Positions 31,009-43,417 of a stretch of DNA of 64,000 nucleotides are shown one piece after another (position 1 is the stretch's first letter; every line of letters begins with the position of its first letter). The position numbers and the translations under genes were made by a program. This stretch comes from Halorarum salinum (GTDB lineage Archaea > Halobacteriota > Halobacteria > Halobacteriales > Haloferacaceae), in contig NZ_CP058579.1 in NCBI RefSeq assembly GCF_013402875.1, forward strand, positions 2,232,001 through 2,296,000, given 5' to 3'. Below the pieces are notes generated by a model, which searched no databases, was not told the DNA's origin, and saw only the letters and a list, made by a program, of their open reading frames with translations.

Positions 31009-31947
31009 CTACTTGTGCTGGTCGATGAACCGGTCGTAGGACCGCTCCCAGTCGTAGTCCTCGTCGAAGTAGCGCTCCGCGAGCGGCTCCTCGGGGAGTT
31101 CCCCGAGCTGCTTCTTCTCCTCCTGGTAGGACGGCCGGTCGTCCTCCCGGTAGTAGATCCCGGTGAGCACCTCGCCCTCGTACAGTTTGTCCTCCGTCTC
31201 GCGCATCAACTCCTGGGCGTCGGCCCGGTTCGTCGGGTCGAACTCGTAGTCCTCGGAGTCGTTGATGTCGGTGTAGGGGACGTACTGTCGCGCGTCCTTG
31301 TTCCAGGTGGGACACTGGGTGAGGAAGTCGACGTGCGCGAAGCCGTCGTGCTCCATCGCCTGGACCAGGATGTCGCGCGCCTGGTTCGGGTTCACCGCCG
31401 CGGTGCGTGCCACGAACGAGGCGCCCGAGGTGAGCGCCATCGACAGCGGCCGGATCGGCGTCTTCGCGGACCCGTGTGGCTGGGTCTTCGACTTGTGACC
31501 CTTCGGGCTCGTGGGGGAGGTCTGGCCCTTGGTGAGCCCGAAGATCTCGTTGTTGAACACGATGTAGGTCATGTCGTGGTTCTCCCGGGCGGTGTGCACG
31601 AAGTGGTTCCCGCCGATGCCGTAGCCGTCGCCGTCGCCGCCGGCGGCGATGACCTCCAGTTCCGGGTTCGCCAGCGCGGCCGCACGCGCGACGGGCAGCG
31701 CGCGCCCGTGCAGCGTGTGGAAGCCGTAGCTGTCGAGGTAGCTGTTCAGCTTGCCCGAGCAGCCGATCCCCGTCACGAGGAGCGTCTCCTCGGGCGTGCG
31801 GCCGACCTCGGGCAGCGCCTGTTTCAGGGACTTGAGCACGCCGAAGTCGCCACAGCCCGGACACCACGTTGCCTGGGGCTCGACGGTCGGCGTGTACTCG
31901 TCCCGGTCGATCTCTCGTTCCTCTCCGATCGCACTGAATGCGCTCAT
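31009..31947 (-). CDS. korB: 2-oxoacid:ferredoxin oxidoreductase, beta subunit (thiamine-PP binding)
   Basis: 312 residues. The Fe-S/TPP head WCPGCGDFGVLKSL, a further Cys in GIGCSGKLNSYLDSYGFH, and the TPP/Mg motif AAGGDGDGYGIGGNHFVH followed by YIVFNNEIFGLTKGQTSPTS define the beta subunit. With KorA it oxidises 2-oxoglutarate or pyruvate, with CoA and ferredoxin, in place of a dehydrogenase complex. Its start lies 3 bases after the korA stop region, so the two genes are one unit. Confidence 0.94.
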   Translation of the reverse strand: MSAFSAIGEEREIDRDEYTPTVEPQATWCPGCGDFGVLKSLKQALPEVGRTPEETLLVTGIGCSGKLNSYLDSYGFHTLHGRALPVARAAALANPELEVIAAGGDGDGYGIGGNHFVHTARENHDMTYIVFNNEIFGLTKGQTSPTSPKGHKSKTQPHGSAKTPIRPLSMALTSGASFVARTAAVNPNQARDILVQAMEHDGFAHVDFLTQCPTWNKDARQYVPYTDINDSEDYEFDPTNRADAQELMRETEDKLYEGEVLTGIYYREDDRPSYQEEKKQLGELPEEPLAERYFDEDYDWERSYDRFIDQHK

Positions 31948-31950
31948 TGG

Positions 31951-33843
31951 TCAGTCACCTGCCGCGGGGACGAACTTGGTCTCGGGGCCGGGGAGCTCCC
32001 CGTCCTCGACGATCGACGTCTCGAAGCCCTCCACGATCTCGGCGGGCTCGAAGGGGTTGCCGTTGTACTTCAGCAGCGAGTGCAGCTTCTCGCCGTAGCG
32101 ACCCAGCTCCTTCTGGGTCAGGCCGCGGAACTGCGCGGAGGCGTTCATCTCGACGACGAGCACCTCGTCGACGCTCTCGACGAAGGCCTCGACCGACTCG
32201 ACCGGGTAGGGCGCCAGTTCGTTCACCGCGAGCGCCTTCACCGACGTCCCGTTCGCGTTCAGCCGGTCGACCGCCTCCTCGACGGTCCCCTGCTGGCTGC
32301 CGAACGTGAGGATACCGTACTCGGCCTCCTCGGGTCCGTACGGGGCGAGCAGCGAGTTCTCGTCCAGGTCCGCGCGGATGGCGTCGAGCTTCTGGAACCG
32401 TCGGTTCACCTGCGCGACCCGGTTGTCCGGGTCCTCGCTGATGTGGCCCGCCTCGTTGTGTTCGTTGCCGGTGACGAGGTAGCGCCCGCCCTTCTGGCCC
32501 GGGATCGAGCGCGGCGAGACGCCGTCGTCGGTCTCGTGCTGGAAGCGGAGGAACTTCCCGTCCTCGGTGTGGGGCTGTTCCTCGAGCTCCGCCTCGGTGA
32601 GCGTCTTCCCCATCGTGGGGTTCGGCTCGCGGTCGAAGTGGGAGGCCGGAACGTTCGTCAGTTCGCCCGAGAGCTTCTGGTCGTACAGGACGACGGACGG
32701 GATCTGGTAGTCGTACGCCAGCCTGAACGCCGTCCGGGAGTGGTCGTACGCCTCCTGGACCGTGCCGGGCGCGAGCACGACGCGGTGGGAGTCGCCCTGC
32801 GAGGTGTAGAGGACGTGCTCGAGGTCGCCCTGTTCGGGCTTGGTCGGCATCCCCGTGGAGGGGCCGGCACGCATCGCCTCGATGAGGACGACCGGCGTCT
32901 CCGACATCTCCGCCAGCCCGAGCGGTTCGGACATCAGGGCGAACCCGCCGCCCGAGGACCCGGACATCGCTTTCGCCCCCGCGTGGGAGGCGCCGACCGC
33001 GAGCGCGGCCGCGGCGATCTCGTCTTCCACCTGCTCGGAGATCCCCCCGAGTTCGGGGAGGTTCTGGGACATGATGGTGAACACCTCCGTCCACGGCGTC
33101 ATCGGGTAGCCGGAGATGAACCGGCAGCCCTCGTCGATGGCGCCGTAGGCGATGGCGTCCGACCCGGACATGAGGAGCTGTTCCTCCTCGTGTTCGCCCT
33201 CGGGGACGTTGATGTCCGGGGCGTCCACGTCGTAGTTCTCGGACACCTGCTCGTACGCGGTCTCGAGGATCTCGAGGTTCGGCTCGAAGATCTCCTCGGG
33301 CATCGCGTCGGCCATCAGCTCCTCGATCCACTCGAGGTCGATGCCGGTGATGGCGCAGGTCGCGCCGACGCCGGCCGTGTTCCGCATGACCTCGCGTCCC
33401 TGCTCGCGGGCGAGGCCGCGCAGGTCGAGCGGGAACACGTGCCAGTCGTTCTCCTCGACGCGCTCCTCGAAGTCCGGGACGTCGGCCGGGTCGAGCAGCC
33501 CCTCGTCGTAGATGATGACGCCGCCCTCCCGGAGGTCGTCCAGGTTCTCCGAGAGCGGTTTCACCTCCTCGTTGCCGTAGTACGCCCCCTCCTGGGGGTT
33601 CCGGGCGAACGAGTCGCCCAGCGCCAGGAGGAAGTTGTACCCGTCACCGCGCGACTTCACGGGGTCCGCGGAGGCGCGCACCTCGACGTAGGTGTGGCCG
33701 CCCCGGATCCGCGACGGATAGTGACGGTGCGTGAATACGTGGAGCCCCGCACGCATCAGGGCTTTCGCGAAGTTCTGGCTGGTCGAGGCGATTCCGTCTC
33801 CGGACCCGCCCGCGATCCGCCAGATGAGTTCGTCGTCTGCCAT
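31951..33843 (-). CDS. korA: 2-oxoacid:ferredoxin oxidoreductase, alpha subunit (gamma-alpha fusion)
   Basis: 630 residues from ATG 33843; GTG 33897 is in frame but would add 18 residues without family support, and a Shine-Dalgarno-like GGAGG lies between them. The gamma domain comes first (LIWRIAGGSGDGIASTSQNF, HVFTHRHYPSRIRGGHTYVE), then the alpha domain: FISGYPMTPWTEVF, GSSGGGFALMSEPLGLAEM, and PVVLIEAMRAGPSTGMPTK. This gamma-alpha fusion is the usual haloarchaeal arrangement. Pairs with KorB for CoA-acylating oxidation with ferredoxin. Confidence 0.94.
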   Translation of the reverse strand: MADDELIWRIAGGSGDGIASTSQNFAKALMRAGLHVFTHRHYPSRIRGGHTYVEVRASADPVKSRGDGYNFLLALGDSFARNPQEGAYYGNEEVKPLSENLDDLREGGVIIYDEGLLDPADVPDFEERVEENDWHVFPLDLRGLAREQGREVMRNTAGVGATCAITGIDLEWIEELMADAMPEEIFEPNLEILETAYEQVSENYDVDAPDINVPEGEHEEEQLLMSGSDAIAYGAIDEGCRFISGYPMTPWTEVFTIMSQNLPELGGISEQVEDEIAAAALAVGASHAGAKAMSGSSGGGFALMSEPLGLAEMSETPVVLIEAMRAGPSTGMPTKPEQGDLEHVLYTSQGDSHRVVLAPGTVQEAYDHSRTAFRLAYDYQIPSVVLYDQKLSGELTNVPASHFDREPNPTMGKTLTEAELEEQPHTEDGKFLRFQHETDDGVSPRSIPGQKGGRYLVTGNEHNEAGHISEDPDNRVAQVNRRFQKLDAIRADLDENSLLAPYGPEEAEYGILTFGSQQGTVEEAVDRLNANGTSVKALAVNELAPYPVESVEAFVESVDEVLVVEMNASAQFRGLTQKELGRYGEKLHSLLKYNGNPFEPAEIVEGFETSIVEDGELPGPETKFVPAAGD

Positions 33844-34247
33844 AGTAGGTTCTGGGCCCTCCAGTAGGCCTAGTGTCCGGAGGTTGTTCTTCGCCACTCA
33901 AATGCCTTGCTATGGGTTCGCAAGGAACGTTCGTGAGGGTTGGCGGGGTTTGGAGACGACCTGCCCTTCGGAAGTCGCCATCTTCCGACCGTTCCGTCTC
34001 ATGCCGTCCTTTGGGCGGGACGATTCGGTTCGTCGTAGGGTTCGCGGGGAGTCGATTTTACGTGGCAGACCGAGCCAGAACTACCGCTGCGCGCCGGGAA
34101 TGCGAGCTGCCGCCTCTCGGTCGAGTGTAAGCAGCTCTACGTTACAGCGAGTCGTTTGCTCGGAAACGGCGTGCCTCCAATGACGGTATAATTCCTGAAA
34201 ATCCGACTAAGTTTTATAACCAAAAACGAATCAAATGCGGCCATCGA
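33844..34247. other. Intergenic region with promoters of korA and the PKD-protein gene
   Basis: About 400 bases, AT-enriched toward the right end. It holds the korA promoter (minus strand) and, at 34212-34219, TTTTATAA, a TATA 30-36 bases before the plus-strand ATG 34248. Composition shifts here from core to accessory DNA. No gene was recognised. Confidence 0.6.
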
Positions 34248-36913
34248 ATGAGGTACGTACTGCTCGCTGTCGCGTTATCGCTCGTCATCGCAGGTTTGCC
34301 CACGGCCACCGCCCTCGACGGAAACGAGCCGCCGGTCGTCGACGCCGGACTCGACCAGTCGGTGGAGGTCGGGGACACCGTCTATCTGGATGGGGGCGGG
34401 TCGTTCGATCCGGACGGCGACCGTCTCACGTACGAGTGGAGCGTGGAGTCGCCGGACGGCTCGACGTTCCCGCCGGAGGGCGCCGGATCCGAACGAACGA
34501 GCTTCGAGGCGTCGGAGACCGGTCGATACTACGTGACCCTCGCCGCGACAGATGAGGACGGAGTAGAGCGAACTGACACGCTATACGTCGACGTCGGTCC
34601 GGCCGACGAGGAGTCGGAGGAGAACGGGGCGCCGACCGGTCGGATCTCCGGCCCGGACGCCGTGATTCGGGGGGAGTCCGCGACGTTCTCCGCCGACGTC
34701 TCGGACCCGGACGGGTCGATCGATAGCTACGGCTGGAGCACGGGTGCGCACGGTCGGACGACGGAGCGAACGTTCTCGGAGGCGGTCGGGGAACGGGTGA
34801 CCGTCTCGGTGACCGTGACGGACGACGACGGAGCCTCGACGCGTCTCACGAAGACGGCAACCGTGGTCGAGGACGGGTCCGAGTCGACGTCCAACAACGA
34901 TCCTCCCGGTGCCAGTATCGACGGTCCAGAACGATTGGGTGTCGGCGAGGGGGCGACGTTCCTCCTCAGGGGAGCGGACTCCGACGGGACGGTGGTGCGA
35001 CGGTCGTGGGCGGAGCCGGAGGCCACGTCCGGGTCGACGATCACCCGGTCGTTCGACCGGAGCGGGGAGTACACCATCCGCGGAACCGTCACGGACGATG
35101 ACGGGGCGACTGCGACCGCCAGCCACACCGTCGAAGTGTACGGAAGCGGGGAACCGGTCGTGAGCATCTCCGGGCCGGACACCGTTCCGTCGGGATCCTC
35201 CGCGAGCTATACGCTGGAGGCGTACGATCCGGACGGGGGCGAGCTGACGGTTTCCTGGTCGCCCGCACAGACTCGGCTGGAACGCGAGGCCTCGCCGTTC
35301 GACAACACGGTGCCCGTGGACGACCCTCCCGGTGAGACGCTAGTGGTTTCCGCGACCGTGACTGACGACGAAGGGCAGTCCGTGACGGTGGTGAAGCGGA
35401 CGAAGGTGACTAGGGTGACGGATAAGGTATGGGACGAGGCCTCACCTATCATTGACGACCTCACTTTCGCCTATCCGCCATCGATGGAGGAACGGATGGA
35501 CGACCGGTACGACGTCCACGGTGGAACGTACATCTACGGTGTGAACGTCTCGCACGATACGGGTGAGCGCGTCAACGTACGATGGGAGTTCAACGATAGC
35601 ACGACCTTGACGGACGCGCTCGGCCCGCTGGACGGGACCGTGAACTCGACGGTCGAACACCAGTTCATGTCGGAGGAGGGCGGGAAACAGACCAGGGCGA
35701 TCTGGGTCGAGGCGACCGACGGGTCCGGCGATCAGACGCGGCGGAAGTGGACCCATCGCGTCCACACGTCCGCCAGACACGACGATATCCGGTTCAGCGC
35801 GTCGGCCGGCGGCGAGTCCATCGGTGCCGATGGTCGTCTCACCGTCCCAGTCGGAACGACGGTTCGATTTGACGCGTTCTCCCTTCAATACTTCAGAGTG
35901 GAGTTCGGCGACGGTGTCGTCGAGCAGCACGATGGCTCTCAGGACTGGCAGTCGTTCCAGCATTCGTACGATGACCCTGGAACGTACACCATACAGATTT
36001 CCTCACATCAGGGGCCAGAGGGGTACGGGGCGAAACGAGTTACCATCCATGTCACTGGAGAATCTTACACTGAGTATTGGTACGAAGTCCGGGAAAAGAT
36101 GCGTGAACAAATTATCTCACAGAATAGTCCAGCAGGAGATAGTTGGGAGGCCATCTCTGTAGCTAGATCTGAGAGATATTTCACCGGAAACACGGAGACC
36201 TATGAAGGTCATCTTGCCGATAACATTGAACTCGGAGATGGATGGATACTAAATCGGACCTACACGGCCACACGCGAACGAACGAAGACCCGAGTCGCCG
36301 ACTTCGATCCCGTGGATCGGGTAGCACATGGACGCTCTCGGAACGGCGTGTCGAACAGGACACGGAGACCTATTTCGAGGACGAGTACACCTGGTACGGT
36401 GCGAGGTACGATCGGCCCGGATGGTCGTACACGGGCGAAACGCGGACCGAGAAGATCGTACACAGCGACGGGCACGACCACCGCCGACAGCGTCACGTCG
36501 ATTACGAACGGACGTCCTGTGCGGAGTGGGCGCTGGACCCGTCACCGTATGGCGGGTTCTCACGATCGTGTGAACGGTGGAACTACGAAAGAAACGTCTG
36601 GTACACTGGACACTATCATAGCGGATGGACGGAGTACGATACGGAGTACCAGTACCATCGTGAAGTCGAACGAACGAGGACTGTCTGGCTTCACGAGTAC
36701 GTGAAGACGTGGGAAGAGGCGGTTAGCGTCACGGAGTTTGCGGAAACAGAGACGCGAACCTTCTGGCTCTGGGAACGTCAGATACAGGGTGAATACGTTA
36801 CGGAGTACGCTCTCGAGAAACCGGGCAAGAACGACTACGTCGAAGGTACGCTCCGACAAGTGGAGGTCCTCTGCGGGTCAGGGGACAGTCATCACGACTC
36901 CGTCATGTGCTAG
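34248..36913 (+). pseudogene. Exported PKD-repeat surface protein, frameshifted
   Basis: The first frame from ATG 34248 has a signal peptide (RYVLLAVALSLVIAGLPTATA) and four Ig-like PKD domains: VVDAGLDQSVEVGDTVYLDG, ISGPDAVIRGESATFSADVS, IDGPERLGVGEGATFLLRGA and ISGPDTVPSGSSASYTLEAY. A further beta stretch has FRVEFGDGVVEQHDG. From about 36300 this frame loses sense, and another frame carries STWTLSERRVEQDTETYFED with a Tyr/Trp/Arg-rich C-terminus to TAG 36911-36913. Near 36313 CGGGTAGC would become CGGGGTAGC if one G were added, restoring about 888 codons. It may be a surface adhesin. AT-rich patches inside the gene suggest transfer. Confidence 0.75.
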
Positions 36914-37036
36914 CGGAGATCCGGAATGCCGAACCATTATATTTAAAACAAAAATAAAAGAATACAGGATTAGAAGGGAAGAATAATAAGCGAGCAACTA
37001 AGTCCGTCTTCGAAACTCGACCCAAAATCCAATACA
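36914..37036. promoter_or_regulatory. AT-rich promoter region of the CAP-domain gene
   Basis: Strong AT bias against a GC-rich genome (TTATATTTAAAAC at about 36937-36949 and AATAATAAGC nearer the gene). It probably holds the promoter of the lipoprotein pair downstream. The TATA candidates lie 60-100 bases before the ATG, so the exact start site is unclear. Confidence 0.45.
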
Positions 37037-37663
37037 ATGATGCCATGCCGGATCGCGATCGCCATGCTCCTCCTCCTTTCAGGTTGTGGCGCATATGCCA
37101 CTGATATAGCGACGACGGATGTGAAGGAAATTACTCGCGCTGATACGACCGAAGCGGATCACTCGGACCGTACAGGGTTCGGCCAACCTGATAGTGCTGT
37201 CAGCACTCCCGAACCTTTGCATAATAAAACACCACGAGGTGATATCAACGTTACTGAAGCTGAGAAGCACCTCGTAGCGGAATTGAATGATCATCGACTC
37301 ACAAATGATCTTGATACGTTAGTTGCTGATCCTCGCCTTGCGGTAATTGCCCGACATCACTCGTATGACATGGCGAACAGGGATTTCTTCGACCATGAGA
37401 ATCCAGACGAGCAATATCTCGGTGACCGATTGGATGAAAGTAGTTACAAATGCAGTCCAGGTGCAGAAAATATCCATTTGACTGGATGGTTAACAGGAAA
37501 CCGTACTACTGAAAGACAACTTGCATACGATTCTATTCTTTCATTTATGAGGTCAGCTCCACACAACGAAAATATGCTTACTCCCCAATTCACCACCACC
37601 GGAATCGGCATCTACGTTACAGAGGACCGCCACGTCTTCGTGACGATGTTATTGTGCAAATGA
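37037..37663 (+). CDS. CAP (SCP/PR-1) domain lipoprotein, low GC
   Basis: 208 residues. The signal sequence ends in a lipobox (AMLLLLSGCG), so the mature N-terminal Cys would carry lipid. A Thr/Asp-rich spacer leads to the CAP domain: VAELNDHRLTNDLDTLVADP, ARHHSYDMANRDFFDHENPD with conserved His residues, CSPGAENIHL with Glu, and APHNENMLTPQFTTTGIGIY. These carry the His/Glu tetrad of CAP proteins. GC content is clearly lower than in neighbours, and codon use is less biased, so recent transfer is likely. The next gene overlaps it by ATGA. Confidence 0.85.
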   Translation: MMPCRIAIAMLLLLSGCGAYATDIATTDVKEITRADTTEADHSDRTGFGQPDSAVSTPEPLHNKTPRGDINVTEAEKHLVAELNDHRLTNDLDTLVADPRLAVIARHHSYDMANRDFFDHENPDEQYLGDRLDESSYKCSPGAENIHLTGWLTGNRTTERQLAYDSILSFMRSAPHNENMLTPQFTTTGIGIYVTEDRHVFVTMLLCK

Positions 37664-38430
37664 CAAGACACCCACGAATGACACGCAACGAGACGCCCAA
37701 AATGACGGACAAGGACACCGTATCGGAACGAACCTCGCCGAAAAGCTCACCGAACAGACGGCAATTGCTCGCCGCGATGGGAAGCACTGCCTCGGTTACG
37801 ACCGCCGGTTGTCTCGGCCTGTTCAGTAGTAACCCCGTTCCGGAATCGGACGGAACCGACGACCGTTACACGACCGTCGAAAAGACGAACACCTTCGGAT
37901 TCGGAGGAACACAAACGCCGTTTCCCCCCGTACAGGGTATCTATCGGGGCTCCGGATCGGGAATTCTGGTCATCGCGTACTTCGACTACTCACACGAGGC
38001 TTCGCTCCAGTGGTGGCGTGAAGAGTACCCGGAACTGACCGACCTCGTGGACGAGGGGCGTCTCAGACTCACGTTACACATGTTCCCGAAACCCGTCGAC
38101 CAGTGGTCGGTCATGCTCCCGTCCGCCCTCTTCGAGGTCCGATCCCGTTCCTCCCGGGAGGCCGCCTGGACGTTCCACGAGCGACTCGTCTCGGCCGACG
38201 AGTACTCGATGGACCTGCTCGAACAACTGGCGAGTGATGTGGGAGTCCCGTCGGATGCCATCACCGAGGCAGCGGAAACCCGGCGTCGTCGAAATCAGGC
38301 GTTCAGCGACAAGGCGATGGGGGAGGACAGCGGCGTGGAGTCGCTTCCGGCGTTCAGATGGGGGATGGAGCGCATCGACGGCACCTCGGCCGAAGACATC
38401 CGGAAGTTCGTCGAGGAGCAACTGGACTAA
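37660..38430 (+). CDS. DsbA-like Tat lipoprotein lacking the CXXC active site
   Basis: 256 residues from ATG 37660, which overlaps the CAP stop as ATGA; ATG 37678 and ATG 37702 are also possible. The twin-arginine signal NRRQLLAAMGSTASVTTAGC ends in a lipobox Cys. The body has a thioredoxin-fold pattern (GILVIAYFDYSHEASLQWWREEYPEL, then RLRLTLHMFPKPVD). In DsbA/DSBA-like proteins the CXXC pair would follow this first strand; here the place reads FDYSHEAS with no cysteine. A redox role is therefore unlikely, and a binding or chaperone role is possible. It is probably co-translated with the CAP lipoprotein. Confidence 0.75.
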   Translation: MTRHPRMTRNETPKMTDKDTVSERTSPKSSPNRRQLLAAMGSTASVTTAGCLGLFSSNPVPESDGTDDRYTTVEKTNTFGFGGTQTPFPPVQGIYRGSGSGILVIAYFDYSHEASLQWWREEYPELTDLVDEGRLRLTLHMFPKPVDQWSVMLPSALFEVRSRSSREAAWTFHERLVSADEYSMDLLEQLASDVGVPSDAITEAAETRRRRNQAFSDKAMGEDSGVESLPAFRWGMERIDGTSAEDIRKFVEEQLD

Positions 38431-38446
38431 TGCCGGTTCGGATCAG

Positions 38447-39634
38447 TTACTGGTTCTCCGGACTGCTGGGGTGGTACTCCGTATCGTACTCCCCGACCTT
38501 CCCGTCCAGCCGGTCCGGGTTGATCCGCCCGCCGAGCAGCATGAAGTCGAGCACCGTACACCACAGCATCGCCTCGACCACCGGAACCCCGCGGGGCGGG
38601 AGCACCGGATCGTGCCGGCCGACGACCTGGATCTCCTTCTCCTCGCCCGTCTCCCAGTCCACGGTCGTCTGCCGCTTCGGAATCGAGGTGGGCGCGTGGA
38701 ACGACACCTCGCCGTAGATCGGCTGGCCGGTGGTGATGCCGCCCTGGAGGCCGGCGTGGTCGTTGCCGACCGGCACCGGGTCGCCCTCCTCGCTCACCGT
38801 CTCGGAGTGACCCTCGCCCTCGTCGAACTCCCAGTCCTCGTTCCGGTCGTGGCCCGCCACCTCCCGGGCGTCGCGGCCGAGTCCGAACTCGAACGCGGTC
38901 GTCGCCGGGATGGACATCATCGCGCGGCCGAGGCGGGACGGGACCGAGTCGAAGCGGGGAGCGCCGAGTCCGCGCGGCACGCCGCGCGCCTCGAAGTAGA
39001 TGGCGCCGCCGATGGAGTCGCCCGCCTCCTGGTACTCGTCGATCAGGTCCCGCATCCGCTCGGCGGTCTCCGGATGAGCACATCGGACCTCGTTCCCCTC
39101 CGAGTGTTCCAGGATCTCCTCGAAGTCCACTTCGGGCGCCTCGACGTCGCCGATCTGGTTGACGTGCGCCTTGATCTCCACGTCGTACTCGCTCTGTTCG
39201 AGGGCCGTCCTGGCGACCGCGCCCGCGGCGACCCAGTTCACCGTCTCCCGGGCCGACGAGCGACCGCCGCCGCCCCAGTTCCGCGTGCCGAACTTCGCGG
39301 AGTAGGTGAAGTCGCCGTGGGAGGGTCGCGGGGCGGTGACGAACGGCTCGTACTTGCCCGAGCGGGCGTCCTTGTTCCGGATGACCATCCCGACCGGCGT
39401 GCCGGTGGTGTAGCCGTCCTGAATCCCGGAGTTGATCTCGACCGCGTCCGGTTCGTCCCGACTCGTCGTGATCATCGACTGGCCGGGCTTGCGCCGGTCG
39501 AGTTCGCGCTGGATCTCCTCCTCGCTCAGTTCGACGCCGGCGGGCACCCCCGACACGGTACAGCCCATCGCGTCGCCGTGGCTCTCCCCGTAGGTGGTGA
39601 CCCGGAAGAGCCGGCCGAACTCGTTCCCGTTCAT
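38447..39634 (-). CDS. aroC: Chorismate synthase
   Basis: 395 residues. The family signature FRVTTYGESHGDAMGC, the RKPGQSMITTSRDEPD loop, RPSHGDFTYSAKFG, and GGGGRSSARETVNWVAAGAV are all present. It converts EPSP to chorismate with reduced FMN, the last common step of aromatic amino acid synthesis. A TATA (ACTTTATACC) lies 22-31 bases upstream. It converges with the DsbA-like gene, 16 bases apart. aroA and tyrA lie further along the window but not in one operon with it. Confidence 0.95.
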   Translation of the reverse strand: MNGNEFGRLFRVTTYGESHGDAMGCTVSGVPAGVELSEEEIQRELDRRKPGQSMITTSRDEPDAVEINSGIQDGYTTGTPVGMVIRNKDARSGKYEPFVTAPRPSHGDFTYSAKFGTRNWGGGGRSSARETVNWVAAGAVARTALEQSEYDVEIKAHVNQIGDVEAPEVDFEEILEHSEGNEVRCAHPETAERMRDLIDEYQEAGDSIGGAIYFEARGVPRGLGAPRFDSVPSRLGRAMMSIPATTAFEFGLGRDAREVAGHDRNEDWEFDEGEGHSETVSEEGDPVPVGNDHAGLQGGITTGQPIYGEVSFHAPTSIPKRQTTVDWETGEEKEIQVVGRHDPVLPPRGVPVVEAMLWCTVLDFMLLGGRINPDRLDGKVGEYDTEYHPSSPENQ

Positions 39635-39757: not shown

Positions 39758-42700
39758 CTACGGCCGTCGGAGCGTCAGCGTCGCGACGGCGAACGTCCCG
39801 CCGAGGACGAAGGCGATCGCCGGGTAGTGCGGGCCGCTCCCCGCAGCCCCCCTCGCTGGCTGGACCGACGCGGACGCCCCCGTCGGCGACTCCGTCGGAG
39901 TCCCGGTCGGGGTTTCGGTCGTCACGACGGTGTACTGGATCAGTTCCGAGGCGAGCACCTCGTCGGTGTCCGCGTCGTGGATCGAGACGGTGACGGTCGT
40001 ACTCCCGTCGAGCGGCGTCGTCAGGGGGAGGTCGCCGTCGACGAGGTCGCCACCCTCGTACTCGACCGACCGCGCGACCTCCCGGCCGTCCGCGCCGACG
40101 GAGACGTAGAAGTCGACCGGGGCGGAGGCCTCCGCGAGGGACACGCTCGACCCGTCGCCCGTCTGATCCTCGACGCGCAGGGTCACGGCCGGCGAGGCGG
40201 TCGTCGTCCGTCCGGGCGGCGACGTAGTCGTCAGTCGGTCGGTCGGCGACTCGGTGGTCGGCGGTCCGGTCGGAACCTCCGTCGCGGTTTCGGTCGGCGT
40301 TTCCGTGGCGGTCGCCGTCGGTGTGTCCGTCGTCGTTGCAGTTGGCGTGTCGGCGGGCGTCCCGGTCGTCGTCCCAGTGGGCGTGTCGATGGGCGTCTCC
40401 GTCGGAACCTCCGTGGGAGTTACGGTGGGCGTCTCGGCCGGGGTATCCGTCGGCGTGTCGGTGGGCGTCTCAATAGCCGTCACGACGGGCGTCTCAGTAG
40501 CGGTCACGACGGCCGTCTCCGTGGCGGTCTCGGTCGGAGCGCTCGTCGGGGTCCCCGTCGGCGTCCCGGGCGTCACGTCCGCCCCCTCGACGGTCACCTC
40601 GGACTCCGCGACGACCGGAACGCCCTCCTCCGCGTACGGTCCGTCGTCGGCGCCGTCGGTCGCGACGAAGTCGAACTCGCCGTCGTCGTCGGTGTCCCGG
40701 TACGGCACGACGAACGCCGTGGCGGACTCGTCGAGAGGTTCGTCCAGTTCGACGGCGACGTCCTCGTGAGTGCCGGGTTCGAGGTAGTCGGAGACGCCGA
40801 TGACGCTCGACCCGGGTTCCTGGACGGCGAACTCCTCGGAGTGAACGGCGAGGTAGCCGCCCTCGGAGAGGGTGGCCGAATCGACCACCACGGCGGTCCC
40901 GTCCGACGTCTGGTCGGACACGCTCACCGTGGCGGCGCCCGCCTCGACCGACAGCTCGGCGTCGTCGATCACCGGCGCGTTCTCGGCGACGTACGGGAGG
41001 TCCTCGCCCGCAGAGGTCGCGACGTAGTCGAACTCCTCGTTCCCGTTCGTGTCGAGGTGCGGCACCGCCGCGATCGCCGCCTCGTCCTCGAGCGCGTCGT
41101 CATCGAACTCGCGTCCCGGCACGTCGAACAGCGTCACCGTGACGTTCTCGTGGGTGCCGGGGTCGAGGTAGTCGGAGACGCCGACGACGCTGCCGAACGG
41201 ATCGCTCCCGACGGCACCGCCCTCGCGGACGGTGACGAAGCCGCCCTCGGAGAGGGTCACCGACGAGACGGTCACCGTCGTCCCGTCCGTCGACTGGTCC
41301 GCGAGGGCGACGTCCGCCTCCCCCTCCACGTCGGGCACCGAGAGGTCAGCGCTCTCGGTCTCGGCGGCCCGAGCGACGTCGTCGACGTCGTCGATCCCCT
41401 CCTCGGAGGCGCTGCTCGCCGCGCCGGCGGACTCGACCCAGGTGGCGTACTGGAGTTGCTGGACGGACACCTCCTGGGCCTGCGAGAGGGCCCCCCGGCA
41501 ACTACCGCGTGCCGCCCCCTCGATCTGGTTCGCGGTCGCGCGCCCGGACTGCGAGAGCGCGCCGCTGGCCGCGCTCTGGGTGACGATCTGCACCTGGACG
41601 ACGGTCACCCGCTGCACCTGCACGCCGCCGGCGGCCGCCCCCCGGGCGGCGGACTGCACCTGCTCGACGGTCACCCGCGTGTACTGAACGACGGACCCCT
41701 TCGCCGCACCGTACGCGGCCGACTGGATCTGGACGAGCGACACCCGCTGGACCTGCGTCAGCGACCCCTCGGCCGCGCCGCTGGCCGCCGCCTGAAGCTG
41801 CTCGACCCGCACCGTCTGCCGCTGGAACGTGCCGGAGGCGGCGCCGGAGGCGGCGCCGTAGGCCGCCCGCTGCACCTGCTCGACGGTCACCGTCTGGACC
41901 TGACGAAGGGCGCCGCCCGCGGCGCCGCTCGCGATCGACTGGGTCTGCTCGACGGTGATTCGCGTCCGCTGGGAGAGCGCGCCGTCGGCGGCGCCGTGGG
42001 CGGCGTACTGGATCAGTTCGACGTCGACGGTCTGCCGCTGGACGGCCTGTCCCACCGCACCTCCCGCGGCACCCTCGGCCGCGTACTGTGCCTGCTGGAC
42101 GTCGACCGACTGTCGCTGCGAGACGACGCCGGATGCAGCGCCCGTCGCCGCGTACTGTACTTGCTCGACGGTCGCCTCCTGTGACTGCGTTAGCGCGCCC
42201 TTGGCCGCCCCGCGTGCGGCTCGCTGGACTTGCGTCACGTCCGCGCGCTGGGAGACGGCGCCCTTGGCCGCCCCGTGAGCGGCGAACTGGAGCTGTTCGA
42301 CGGTGGCGGACTGGTGCTGCTCGAGGGCGCCGCCGGCGGCGCCGCGGGCGGCGAACTGCACCTGCGTGACGTCGACCTCCTGAACCTGCGTGACCGCCCC
42401 GGTCGCGGCGCCGCGGGCGGCCGACTGGATCTGTTCGACGTCGACCACCTGCCGCTGGGCCGCCCTCTCGCAGGCGCCGTGGGCGGCCCCCTCCGCGGCG
42501 ATCTGGATCTGCTCGACGGTCACGGTCTGGGACTGGACGAGCGCGCCCGCTGCCCCGCCCCGCGCCGCGGCCTGGATCTGTTCGACGGTGACCGACTGTC
42601 GCTGCGTTGCGGCCCCCTTCGCCGCGCCGCGAGCCCCGCCCATCGCGGCCACCTGGACCTGCTTGACGTCCGCCCGCTGGTGCTGTTCGAGGGCACCGCG

Positions 42701-43417
42701 TGCGCCGCCGGTGGACGCGGCCTGGAGCTGTTCGACCGACACGCGCTGGCGCTGGGTGAGTGCGCCGTAGGCCGCACCCTGCGCGGCTTCCTGTACCTGA
42801 CCGACGTGGGTGACCCCCCGCTCGACCGCGCCGCGGGTGGCTCCCGACGCCGCGCCGCGGGAGACGCGCCGGAGTTGTTCGGCCGTCACCGACCCCCGCT
42901 GCGCGAGCGACCCGTGGGCGGCCCCGTGGGCCGCGCTCTGGATCTGGGTCACCTCAGCCTCCTGATGCCGTTCGAGGGATCCCTCGACGCTCCCTCCCAC
43001 GGCCGCCCGCACCTGCGTGACGTCGGTTACTTGCTCCTGCAGGAAGGCACCGTGTGCGGCGCCCCGGGCCGCCCGACTGACCTTCCCGTCGCTCGCGTCC
43101 GGATACTCCGCGGCGGCCTCGGCCGCCGCCTCGCTCGCGGCCTCGACCTCGTCGTCGGTCACGTCGGCGCCCTGATCGCGGGCCAGGTCCGCGGCGCGCT
43201 CGACCCCGTCGATTGCCGCCCGCTGCTGTGCCGCCCCCGCCGACCTGTCCGCGACCCGGTCGGCCGCGCCGTCCGGACCGTCACCCGCCGCCGACCCGTC
43301 GGCCCCGTGAACGCCGGCCGCGCCGAGCGATCCGCCGGCGAAGGCCGCGAGAAGCAGGACGCCGACGAGCGCGAGGGTCGTCCGGAGGAGCGCGACCGGG
43401 ATGTCCTCGTCAGTCAT
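39758..43417 (-). CDS. Very large repeat surface protein: about 23 Gly/Ala/Gln repeats, DUF7282 domains, TP stalk, membrane anchor
   Basis: 1219 residues. A signal or anchor helix (VALLRTTLALVGVLLLAAFAG) and an acidic, Ala-rich spacer lead at about residue 113 to roughly 23 imperfect repeats of about 23 residues with consensus V-T-V-E-Q-V-Q-x-A-A-x-G-A-A-x-G-A-L-x-Q-x-Q, ending near residue 665. Some units carry a 3-4 residue insertion. Three DUF7282-like beta domains follow (SVTLSEGGFVTVREGGAVGS, DSATLSEGGYLAVHSEEF). Then a Thr/Pro stalk, probably O-glycosylated, a third beta module, and a C-terminal helix AIAFVLGGTFAVATLTLRRP. Likely a cell-surface protein; no enzyme motif. Confidence 0.8.
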   Translation of the reverse strand: MTDEDIPVALLRTTLALVGVLLLAAFAGGSLGAAGVHGADGSAAGDGPDGAADRVADRSAGAAQQRAAIDGVERAADLARDQGADVTDDEVEAASEAAAEAAAEYPDASDGKVSRAARGAAHGAFLQEQVTDVTQVRAAVGGSVEGSLERHQEAEVTQIQSAAHGAAHGSLAQRGSVTAEQLRRVSRGAASGATRGAVERGVTHVGQVQEAAQGAAYGALTQRQRVSVEQLQAASTGGARGALEQHQRADVKQVQVAAMGGARGAAKGAATQRQSVTVEQIQAAARGGAAGALVQSQTVTVEQIQIAAEGAAHGACERAAQRQVVDVEQIQSAARGAATGAVTQVQEVDVTQVQFAARGAAGGALEQHQSATVEQLQFAAHGAAKGAVSQRADVTQVQRAARGAAKGALTQSQEATVEQVQYAATGAASGVVSQRQSVDVQQAQYAAEGAAGGAVGQAVQRQTVDVELIQYAAHGAADGALSQRTRITVEQTQSIASGAAGGALRQVQTVTVEQVQRAAYGAASGAASGTFQRQTVRVEQLQAAASGAAEGSLTQVQRVSLVQIQSAAYGAAKGSVVQYTRVTVEQVQSAARGAAAGGVQVQRVTVVQVQIVTQSAASGALSQSGRATANQIEGAARGSCRGALSQAQEVSVQQLQYATWVESAGAASSASEEGIDDVDDVARAAETESADLSVPDVEGEADVALADQSTDGTTVTVSSVTLSEGGFVTVREGGAVGSDPFGSVVGVSDYLDPGTHENVTVTLFDVPGREFDDDALEDEAAIAAVPHLDTNGNEEFDYVATSAGEDLPYVAENAPVIDDAELSVEAGAATVSVSDQTSDGTAVVVDSATLSEGGYLAVHSEEFAVQEPGSSVIGVSDYLEPGTHEDVAVELDEPLDESATAFVVPYRDTDDDGEFDFVATDGADDGPYAEEGVPVVAESEVTVEGADVTPGTPTGTPTSAPTETATETAVVTATETPVVTAIETPTDTPTDTPAETPTVTPTEVPTETPIDTPTGTTTGTPADTPTATTTDTPTATATETPTETATEVPTGPPTTESPTDRLTTTSPPGRTTTASPAVTLRVEDQTGDGSSVSLAEASAPVDFYVSVGADGREVARSVEYEGGDLVDGDLPLTTPLDGSTTVTVSIHDADTDEVLASELIQYTVVTTETPTGTPTESPTGASASVQPARGAAGSGPHYPAIAFVLGGTFAVATLTLRRP
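41430..43030 (-). repeat. Region of about 69-base coding repeats inside the surface-protein gene
   Basis: About 23 diverged units of roughly 69 bases (23 codons) sit head-to-tail. On the plus strand they show as recurring CTGGATCTGTTCGACGGT and GGCCGCC blocks. Repeat divergence at third positions points to old duplications, but neighbouring units share enough sequence to recombine. Units with inserted GAAKGAA or GAASGAA are the main length variants. Confidence 0.75.

Follow-up and report, generated by a model that had tools for sequence, protein, structure and literature searches.

The window analysed here, a 64-kb stretch of DNA from the genome of Halorarum salinum (G000), carries three genes for exported proteins in the interval between korA and aroC, encoding a PKD-stalk protein, a CAP-domain lipoprotein and a DsbA-like lipoprotein. 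The features of this interval and its flanks are as follows.

31951..33897, minus strand: korA-like 2-oxoacid:ferredoxin oxidoreductase alpha subunit (Pfam POR_N and POR); conserved left neighbour, used as site marker
34212..34219, plus strand: TATA-like box TTTTATAA, 29-36 bases 5' of the PKD start, read from the sequence
34248..36310, plus strand: first-frame part of the PKD-stalk protein, with an export signal by eye, PKD/Ig-like domains (PF18911, PF00801) and same-site orthologs
36300..36320 (approximate), plus strand: point where the conserved PKD frame shifts to another frame, from the profile A2 match and alignment rows
36311..36913, plus strand: conserved C-terminal part of the PKD-stalk protein in the second frame, rich in W, Y, T and R, with four cysteines and CX11C at the end
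36937..36948, plus strand: TATA-like element read from the sequence, within the AT-rich gap between PKD and CAP; possible second promoter
37037..37663, plus strand: CAP-domain lipoprotein, lipobox LSGC by eye (PF00188, 7e-14)
37660..38430, plus strand: DsbA-like lipoprotein of Tat type (by eye), lacking CXXC (PF13462), its start overlapping the CAP stop as ATGA
38447..39634, minus strand: aroC, chorismate synthase (PF01264, 7.6e-116); conserved right neighbour

The GC content of the three genes is 48-63%, against 70% for the window: 0.63 in the PKD gene before the frame change and 0.58 after it, 0.37 in the PKD-CAP gap, 0.48 in the CAP gene and 0.61 in the DsbA-like gene, and the 1-kb profile across the window reaches its minimum (0.503) at 36501-37500. 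Third codon positions follow the same trend, GC3 being 0.73 for the PKD gene as called, 0.45 for CAP and 0.74 for the DsbA-like gene, against 0.93-0.94 for korA, korB, lrp and aroC. These scans bear out an earlier, sequence-only reading of this DNA, which had described a lower-GC patch unlike the surrounding core genes and an ATGA overlap of the last two genes (37660-37663). That reading had also placed three exported proteins across 33900-38430; signals recognised by eye agree that all three are exported, but 33900-34247 is mostly non-coding. The sole exact repeat of at least 20 bases within 33000-39600 is a 21-base inverted pair, in the PKD gene (36631-36651) and in aroC (38472-38492). We dismissed it as an insertion-linked flank and regard it as a coding coincidence: it falls on a stretch coding for EYDTEY, peptides like this one are seen in both protein families, and the longest word shared by the PKD and aroC genes in 14 other genomes checked is 11-16 bases.

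The PKD protein begins with an ordinary Sec-type signal (by eye) and matches PF18911 at 2.1e-28, with four stretches above the cut-off; with its export signal it thus qualifies as a PKD-domain surface protein. As called (34248-36704), its ORF departs from the conserved frame at about 36.31 kb. The first frame covers positions 6-273 of profile A2 and the second positions 251-471, both window frames being rows of that profile. The frame change and the true C-terminus, which extends to 36913, had been missed by the sequence-only reading. The PKD frame is open, at 901-974 residues, in 10 of the 13 gene-bearing genomes of the two main genera; a frame change also occurs in G013, and the protein is short in G012 and G022. 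A box like the PKD TATA element stands at about the same distance in 8/9 relatives printed (by eye; the exception is G015), and in the ten relatives with an intact PKD gene, from the window's genus and the Halobaculum group, the PKD-CAP gap is 45-95 bases long with a GC content of 0.27-0.45.

The CAP assignment is firm: the protein scores 53.1 bits against PF00188, far above the cut-off of 21.1, and its nearest solved relative by sequence match is 4ifa (3.7e-12). C139, C207, H120 and H176 are invariant across the eight aligned rows. It resembles the exported CAP/SCP proteins of YkwD type in its PF00188 domain and lipoprotein signal (by eye), but differs from the YkwD and DalA subfamilies in falling well below their NCBIfam cut-offs (54.8 of 171 bits and 19.5 of 200 bits, respectively). 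CAP genes are often present in the order outside this gene set, and profile matches at E<=1e-12 were obtained in 212 of its 382 genomes.

The third protein barely passes the Thioredoxin_4 threshold (PF13462; 23.4 bits, cut-off 23.2). Its label as DsbA-like holds with respect to this match, but the protein has no CXXC motif, a loss that the sequence-only reading had overlooked. CXXC is absent from all 13 orthologs, each of which carries FDY[SA]H..S in its place, whereas 14 of the 15 printed non-orthologous relatives have it (18 were given and 15 yielded the segment). Six of the 13 orthologs, including that of the window, have no cysteine beyond that of the lipobox, and the [LI]PA cis-Pro block is retained in every one. 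The catalytic CXXC expected of a DsbA or thioredoxin oxidoreductase has been lost in this branch. The family nonetheless shares with the haloarchaeal DsbA/Thioredoxin_4 lipoproteins a Tat-type lipoprotein layout (by eye) and the cis-Pro block, and it matches CXXC-bearing haloarchaeal relatives, a set picked for the presence of CXXC, with 99.4% probability over 214 profile columns. A profile search of the PDB with the DsbA-like alignment gave no match at E<=1; two AlphaFold models, one of them of this protein, are poor (mean pLDDT 50 and 52), and Foldseek comparison of the weak DsbA-like model with DsbA structures gave weak matches (E >= 8e-3). A GTG at 37654 is also open as an alternative start.

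Fifteen neighbourhoods, selected as the best PKD matches, were fetched. Eleven hold all three genes, two PKD and CAP, one PKD and the DsbA-like gene, and one PKD alone; All of them have korA upstream of PKD, at a distance of 4.8 kb in G015, and 14 have aroC on the downstream side. The full trio follows korA in the congener G102 and in 10 of the 11 fetched Halobaculum-group genomes, and PKD with CAP occupies the site in a further genus. The four-base CAP-DsbA-like overlap is retained in 10 of 11 relatives having both genes. Several ORF starts are over-extended in the tables of PKD frame lengths, overlaps and GC for the relatives. In four genomes of three other genera, the PKD protein is found at the site with a different partner gene, whose product has a hydrophobic, anchor-like C-terminus (by eye). 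The joint occurrence of the three genes in relatives, together with the export signals, supports the earlier description of the trio as a cell-surface module.

The same reading had taken the module to be horizontally acquired. In a recent acquisition, the three genes would have arrived together from a lower-GC haloarchaeal donor, in keeping with their GC and GC3 below those of the neighbours and with the absence of the set from the congener G103, where 962 bases of other low-GC sequence occupy the site. The strain comparison and phylogeny proposed as checks point the other way, and the vertical conservation of the set, with the same composition, that was to tell against acquisition is what we observe. 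Orthologs stand at the same site in the congener and the Halobaculum group and share the CAP trough, CAP GC3 being lower than core-gene GC3 in all 14 CAP-bearing genomes; the PKD gene has little or no trough in three genomes (GC3 0.95 in G022, 0.84 in G012, 0.86 in G013). The window's genome joins its congener G102 in all four trees that include both (KorA, PKD, CAP and DsbA-like). For KorA, these trees use rows of at least 1700 bases, and the PKD row of the window's genome is the frame as called, out-of-frame end included. Two placements are discordant. In the CAP tree, G010, of the Halobaculum group, falls with the genus of the window's genome (89/89). G022 is joined to that genus by KorA (97/98), but the PKD tree sets it outside both that genus and the Halobaculum group. 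A search of the 64-kb window for tRNAs found none, and a tRNA-linked insertion was rejected on this ground. At the sensitivity used, a DsbA-like profile query found no relative on viral contigs, and DsbA-like and PKD queries of plasmids gave weak matches only, none of them a close relative; carriage of the set by a virus or plasmid was rejected accordingly for these queries. On synteny, composition and gene trees we reject a recent acquisition, which we regard as very improbable. An acquisition predating the split of these genera is compatible with the same evidence.

The trio evolves fast, with identities of 50-60% against a syntenic median of 79%, and it does so under purifying selection: dN/dS is 0.10-0.28, estimated with the same rows and length limit as the trees, in five genome pairs for PKD and four each for CAP and the DsbA-like gene. 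In the G016/G017 pair, aroC (an over-extended ORF) reaches 0.125, as high as PKD and the DsbA-like gene. Identity to G102 correlates with GC3 across 33 syntenic ORFs, a list that includes antisense ORFs (Spearman 0.77); recomputation from the rounded table gave 0.78 (33 rows), 0.74 for the 30 ORFs that remain without the trio, and 0.77 when the ORF opposite korA was also left out. In our reading, the low GC3 would be a product of rapid evolution combined with weak selection on codon use here, and not of a foreign donor. The broken or short PKD genes of G000, G012, G013 and G022 and the absence of the set from G103 indicate that it is dispensable. They would also fit a surface module that has come under relaxed selection and is on its way to being lost, as would the failure to detect CAP in G012 and PKD and the DsbA-like gene in G103. 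Such decay is nevertheless unlikely in view of the dN/dS values, the prevalence of open PKD frames, the conserved cysteines and the TATA-like box kept in most printed relatives.

More distant relatives carry comparable gene pairs, which favour the surface complex described below. In G234, from another family, a PKD stalk matching the C-terminal profile is directly followed by a CAP lipoprotein, as in the window; this PKD protein has a pilin-like start and lies near pilin-, pilB- and pilC-like genes (by eye), whereas that of the window has a Sec-type signal and korA/aroC flanks, and inspection by eye showed neither a pilin-type signal nor pilus genes among the window's trio and the genes that flank it. 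In G176, also from another family, PKD tails adjoin several CXXC-less DsbA-like copies, and two of the tails are identical over 59 residues and then diverge. The G176 tails also recall a recognition or competition system in which a PKD stalk would end in a variable C-terminal tip, with the lipoproteins encoded downstream as its cognate holders or protectors. Between genus groups, the first ~120 residues of the PKD protein are 50-62% identical and the remainder mostly below 30%, partner genes at the one site differ by genus group, and a broken additional DsbA-like fragment persists upstream in G015. However, divergence within the window's genus and within the Halobaculum group is roughly even along the PKD protein, with no tip swap seen; Pfam finds no toxin domain in the two window frames or in the PKD proteins of G102 and G009; and the gene arrangement in G176 is unsure, as its contigs break at the repeat. 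We consider this reading improbable for the trio, and slightly more doubtful still a general haloarchaeal system with a conserved PKD base, a changing disulfide-ended tip and a variant-specific CXXC-less DsbA-like holder or protector; if true, such a system would serve self-recognition, competition or virus escape at the cell surface.

The activity could instead reside in the CAP protein, as a predicted envelope enzyme or lipid binder, with the PKD and DsbA-like proteins as substrate-binding accessories. The strength of the CAP match and its solved relative, set against the marginal DsbA-like match, and the existence of PKD-CAP pairs without the DsbA-like gene would agree with this. Yet no CAP gene was found at the site beside the PKD relatives of G022, G044, G008, G009 and G169, and the limited literature search made brought up no archaeal CAP activity, so that a CAP-centred function also appears unlikely.

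The reading we favour, with moderate confidence, is that of a vertically inherited, fast-evolving surface-protein locus at the korA-aroC junction, whose products would form a surface complex: a PKD stalk with two lipoproteins, of which the DsbA-like protein would be a non-catalytic holder. In the function that we infer, the PKD gene would yield a secreted stalk of Ig-like domains followed by a C-terminal part that is rich in beta structure and stabilised by disulfides. The two lipoproteins, presumably made by coupled translation, would be exposed at the outer membrane face. Since the DsbA-like protein keeps the family plan and the cis-proline block without the catalytic cysteines, we propose that it holds or docks the PKD stalk and does not oxidise it. 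Redox-inactive thioredoxin-fold chaperones of eukaryotes such as ERp29 likewise lack catalytic cysteines and have a proposed holding role; the likeness would concern this role and a putative thioredoxin-type fold without catalytic cysteines, whereas the domain plan differs. The complex would most likely function in adhesion or in recognition at the cell surface, either below the S-layer or reaching through it.

This case indicates that a pronounced dip in GC on a haloarchaeal chromosome can be an inherited trait of a fast-evolving surface locus, and composition alone is thus a poor ground for calling horizontal islands. It also directs attention to a conserved branch of DsbA-like lipoproteins that lack CXXC and are linked, in two archaeal families, with PKD-stalk proteins. 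The limited literature search made brought up nothing on this branch, which offers a lipoprotein of predicted thioredoxin fold in which a role as holder and not as oxidase can be tested.

The genes lying between korA and aroC in the Halorarum salinum window, together with their flanks, are laid out as follows (export signals were assigned by eye):

31009-33897, minus strand, korA/korB pair, left flank of the trio
from 34248, plus strand, exported PKD-domain protein
37037-37663, plus strand, exported CAP-domain lipoprotein
37660-38430, plus strand, exported DsbA-like lipoprotein, its start inside the CAP stop codon (ATGA)
38447-39634, minus strand, aroC, right flank of the trio

The sequence-only reading had described a lower-GC island of exported proteins in which the last two genes overlap as ATGA, and both descriptions hold: GC is 0.63 in the PKD gene, 0.48 in CAP and 0.61 in the DsbA-like gene against 0.70 for the window, the region has the lowest 1-kb GC of the window profile, and the CAP stop and the DsbA-like start coincide at 37660. 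Another low-GC stretch lies at 1-2400 (0.53-0.58 over the first 2 kb), with an apparent sensor kinase and a broken tyrosine recombinase (by eye). Next to aroC, the minus-strand gene at 39758-43417 encodes a protein of 1219 residues that looks exported and contains DUF7282 domains and numerous degenerate repeats (GAA.GA...Q...V.VEQ.Q). An exact 21-base inverted repeat pairs 36631-36651, in the C-terminal part of the PKD gene, with 38472-38492, at the end of aroC; both arms encode EYDTEY, and the counterpart in 14 relatives reaches at most 11-16 bases.

Of the proposal that this island is a horizontally acquired cell-surface module, the horizontal acquisition is not borne out. We fetched the 15 neighborhoods with the best PKD matches, from the 47 of 170 family genomes matching at E<=1e-10. 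In every one of them korA lies upstream of PKD, at a distance of 4.8 kb in G015. aroC follows downstream in 14; in the fifteenth, the congener G102, an inversion has displaced it. All three genes are present in 11 of the 15, namely G102 and 10 of the 11 genomes of the Halobaculum group; the others have PKD and CAP (two genomes of a further genus, g13), PKD and the DsbA-like gene (G012) or PKD alone (G022). The four-base overlap is retained in 10 of the 11 relatives having both CAP and DsbA-like genes, with a 47-base gap in G102. In that genome (C1, about 1243000-1262000; L196-L197) the aroC side runs opposite to its orientation in the window, one breakpoint of the inversion falling downstream of the DsbA-like gene. 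The sequence of ~4.8 kb that parts korA from PKD in G015 contains a broken extra DsbA-like fragment (L041:6382-6630).

The unusual composition is likewise shared. CAP GC3 is 0.42-0.72 in all 14 genomes with CAP versus 0.91-0.96 for KorB, and the GC drop along PKD is clear in four of six genomes profiled (the window's, G102, G019 and G052), slight in G017 and barely visible in G010; it is absent from G022, which has PKD alone (0.95). The window's genome groups with G102 in the KorA, PKD, DsbA-like and CAP trees, the AroC tree being without G102. Two placements are discordant: G010 falls beside the window's genus in the CAP tree (89/89), and G022 falls with that genus in the KorA tree (97/98) and outside it and the Halobaculum group in the PKD tree. 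On balance, the set is conserved at the same site with the same composition, the outcome that the sequence-only reading itself had set against its proposal, and the trio was inherited vertically rather than acquired recently.

Between the window's genome and G102, the trio proteins are 50-59% identical over aligned codons versus 92-95% for KorA and KorB, the median of 33 syntenic ORFs being 79%; two short ORFs from other parts of the window diverge at least as much (43% and 51%). Identity correlates with GC3 (Spearman 0.77 over the 33 ORFs, 0.74 over the 30 excluding the trio) in a list that includes some antisense ORFs. For PKD, dN/dS lies at 0.12-0.25 in five pairs; CAP gives 0.16-0.25 in four, with a fifth not estimable, and the DsbA-like gene 0.10-0.28 in four. 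Most of these values exceed the 0-0.125 of flanking genes: the trio evolves fast but under constraint. The low GC would therefore most plausibly be an enduring feature of a locus that evolves fast under weak codon selection.

The PKD protein has 901-974 residues in 10 intact relatives from the window's genus and the Halobaculum group versus 818 in the window's frame. Against the C-terminal profile, this frame aligns as far as position 273, and positions 251-471 are covered by a second frame that stays open to 36913, which puts the frame change near 36.31 kb. The window's gene is thus longer than called and, as assembled, broken, whether by mutation or by sequencing error. G013 likewise has a split PKD gene, and in G012 and G022 the gene is short. 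At the end of most intact proteins printed stand two cysteines, 7-11 residues from each other.

In all 13 DsbA-like orthologs FDY[SA]H..S[IL] stands in place of the relatives' CPHC or CSHC, and the cis-proline's [LI]PA block is retained; CXXC is present in 14 of the 15 non-orthologous relatives printed. The orthologs' profile and that of the 14 relatives, a set selected for its CXXC, match across 214 columns (99.4%). At E<=1e-20 the orthologs' profile matches in 10 of 392 genomes of the order, confined to two genera and G176, a genome of another family. The AlphaFold model is weak (pLDDT 50); Foldseek with it ranked ScsC and DsbA-type proteins first, though at E>=8e-3, and the profile brought up no PDB sequence at E<=1.

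We located aroC and korA in 40 genomes and read 18 stretches from 17 of them. Four (G044, G008, G009, G169) have a longer PKD protein (1115-1160 residues) and a 310-331-residue partner with a hydrophobic, anchor-like end (by eye), and five g13 genomes have PKD and CAP (on two contigs in G053). In G080, 235 bases separate korA from aroC; the congener G103, which lacks the trio, has two unrelated ORFs there (218 and 97 residues, GC 0.42 and 0.37; L107, reverse strand), and in G021 a PKD match lies close to aroC but korA is in another place. In G048 (L112) korA and aroC flank two ORFs that resemble pilin genes by eye. Across genus groups the first ~120 PKD residues are 50-62% identical and the remainder mostly <30%; divergence within groups is roughly even.

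Farther afield, L164:310-11816 of G234, a genome of another family, encodes a PKD-stalk protein whose start resembles a pilin, together with a CAP lipoprotein (both profile matches). A pilin-like gene precedes the two, and pilB/pilC-like genes follow them beyond a single minus-strand ORF (pilus names by eye); this stalk protein is possibly a pilus-tip adhesin. In G176, seen in part as contigs end at repeats (L160, L161, L162, L163), at least three PKD tails adjoin DsbA-like copies, two of the tails being identical over 59 residues and then divergent. Seven DsbA-like matches occur genome-wide, two being parts of one broken copy; the four copies aligned all lack CXXC, and the C-terminal halves are nearly the same.

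The PKD gene would encode a secreted stalk with a disulfide-ended C-terminus, and the CAP and DsbA-like lipoproteins may be made as a coupled pair, the latter incapable of CXXC chemistry and most likely holding or docking the stalk. Our boldest reading, a system for recognition or competition with a variable tip, is improbable; what speaks for tip exchange is confined to the differences between genus groups and to G176. The trio would likely act at the cell surface, in adhesion or recognition.
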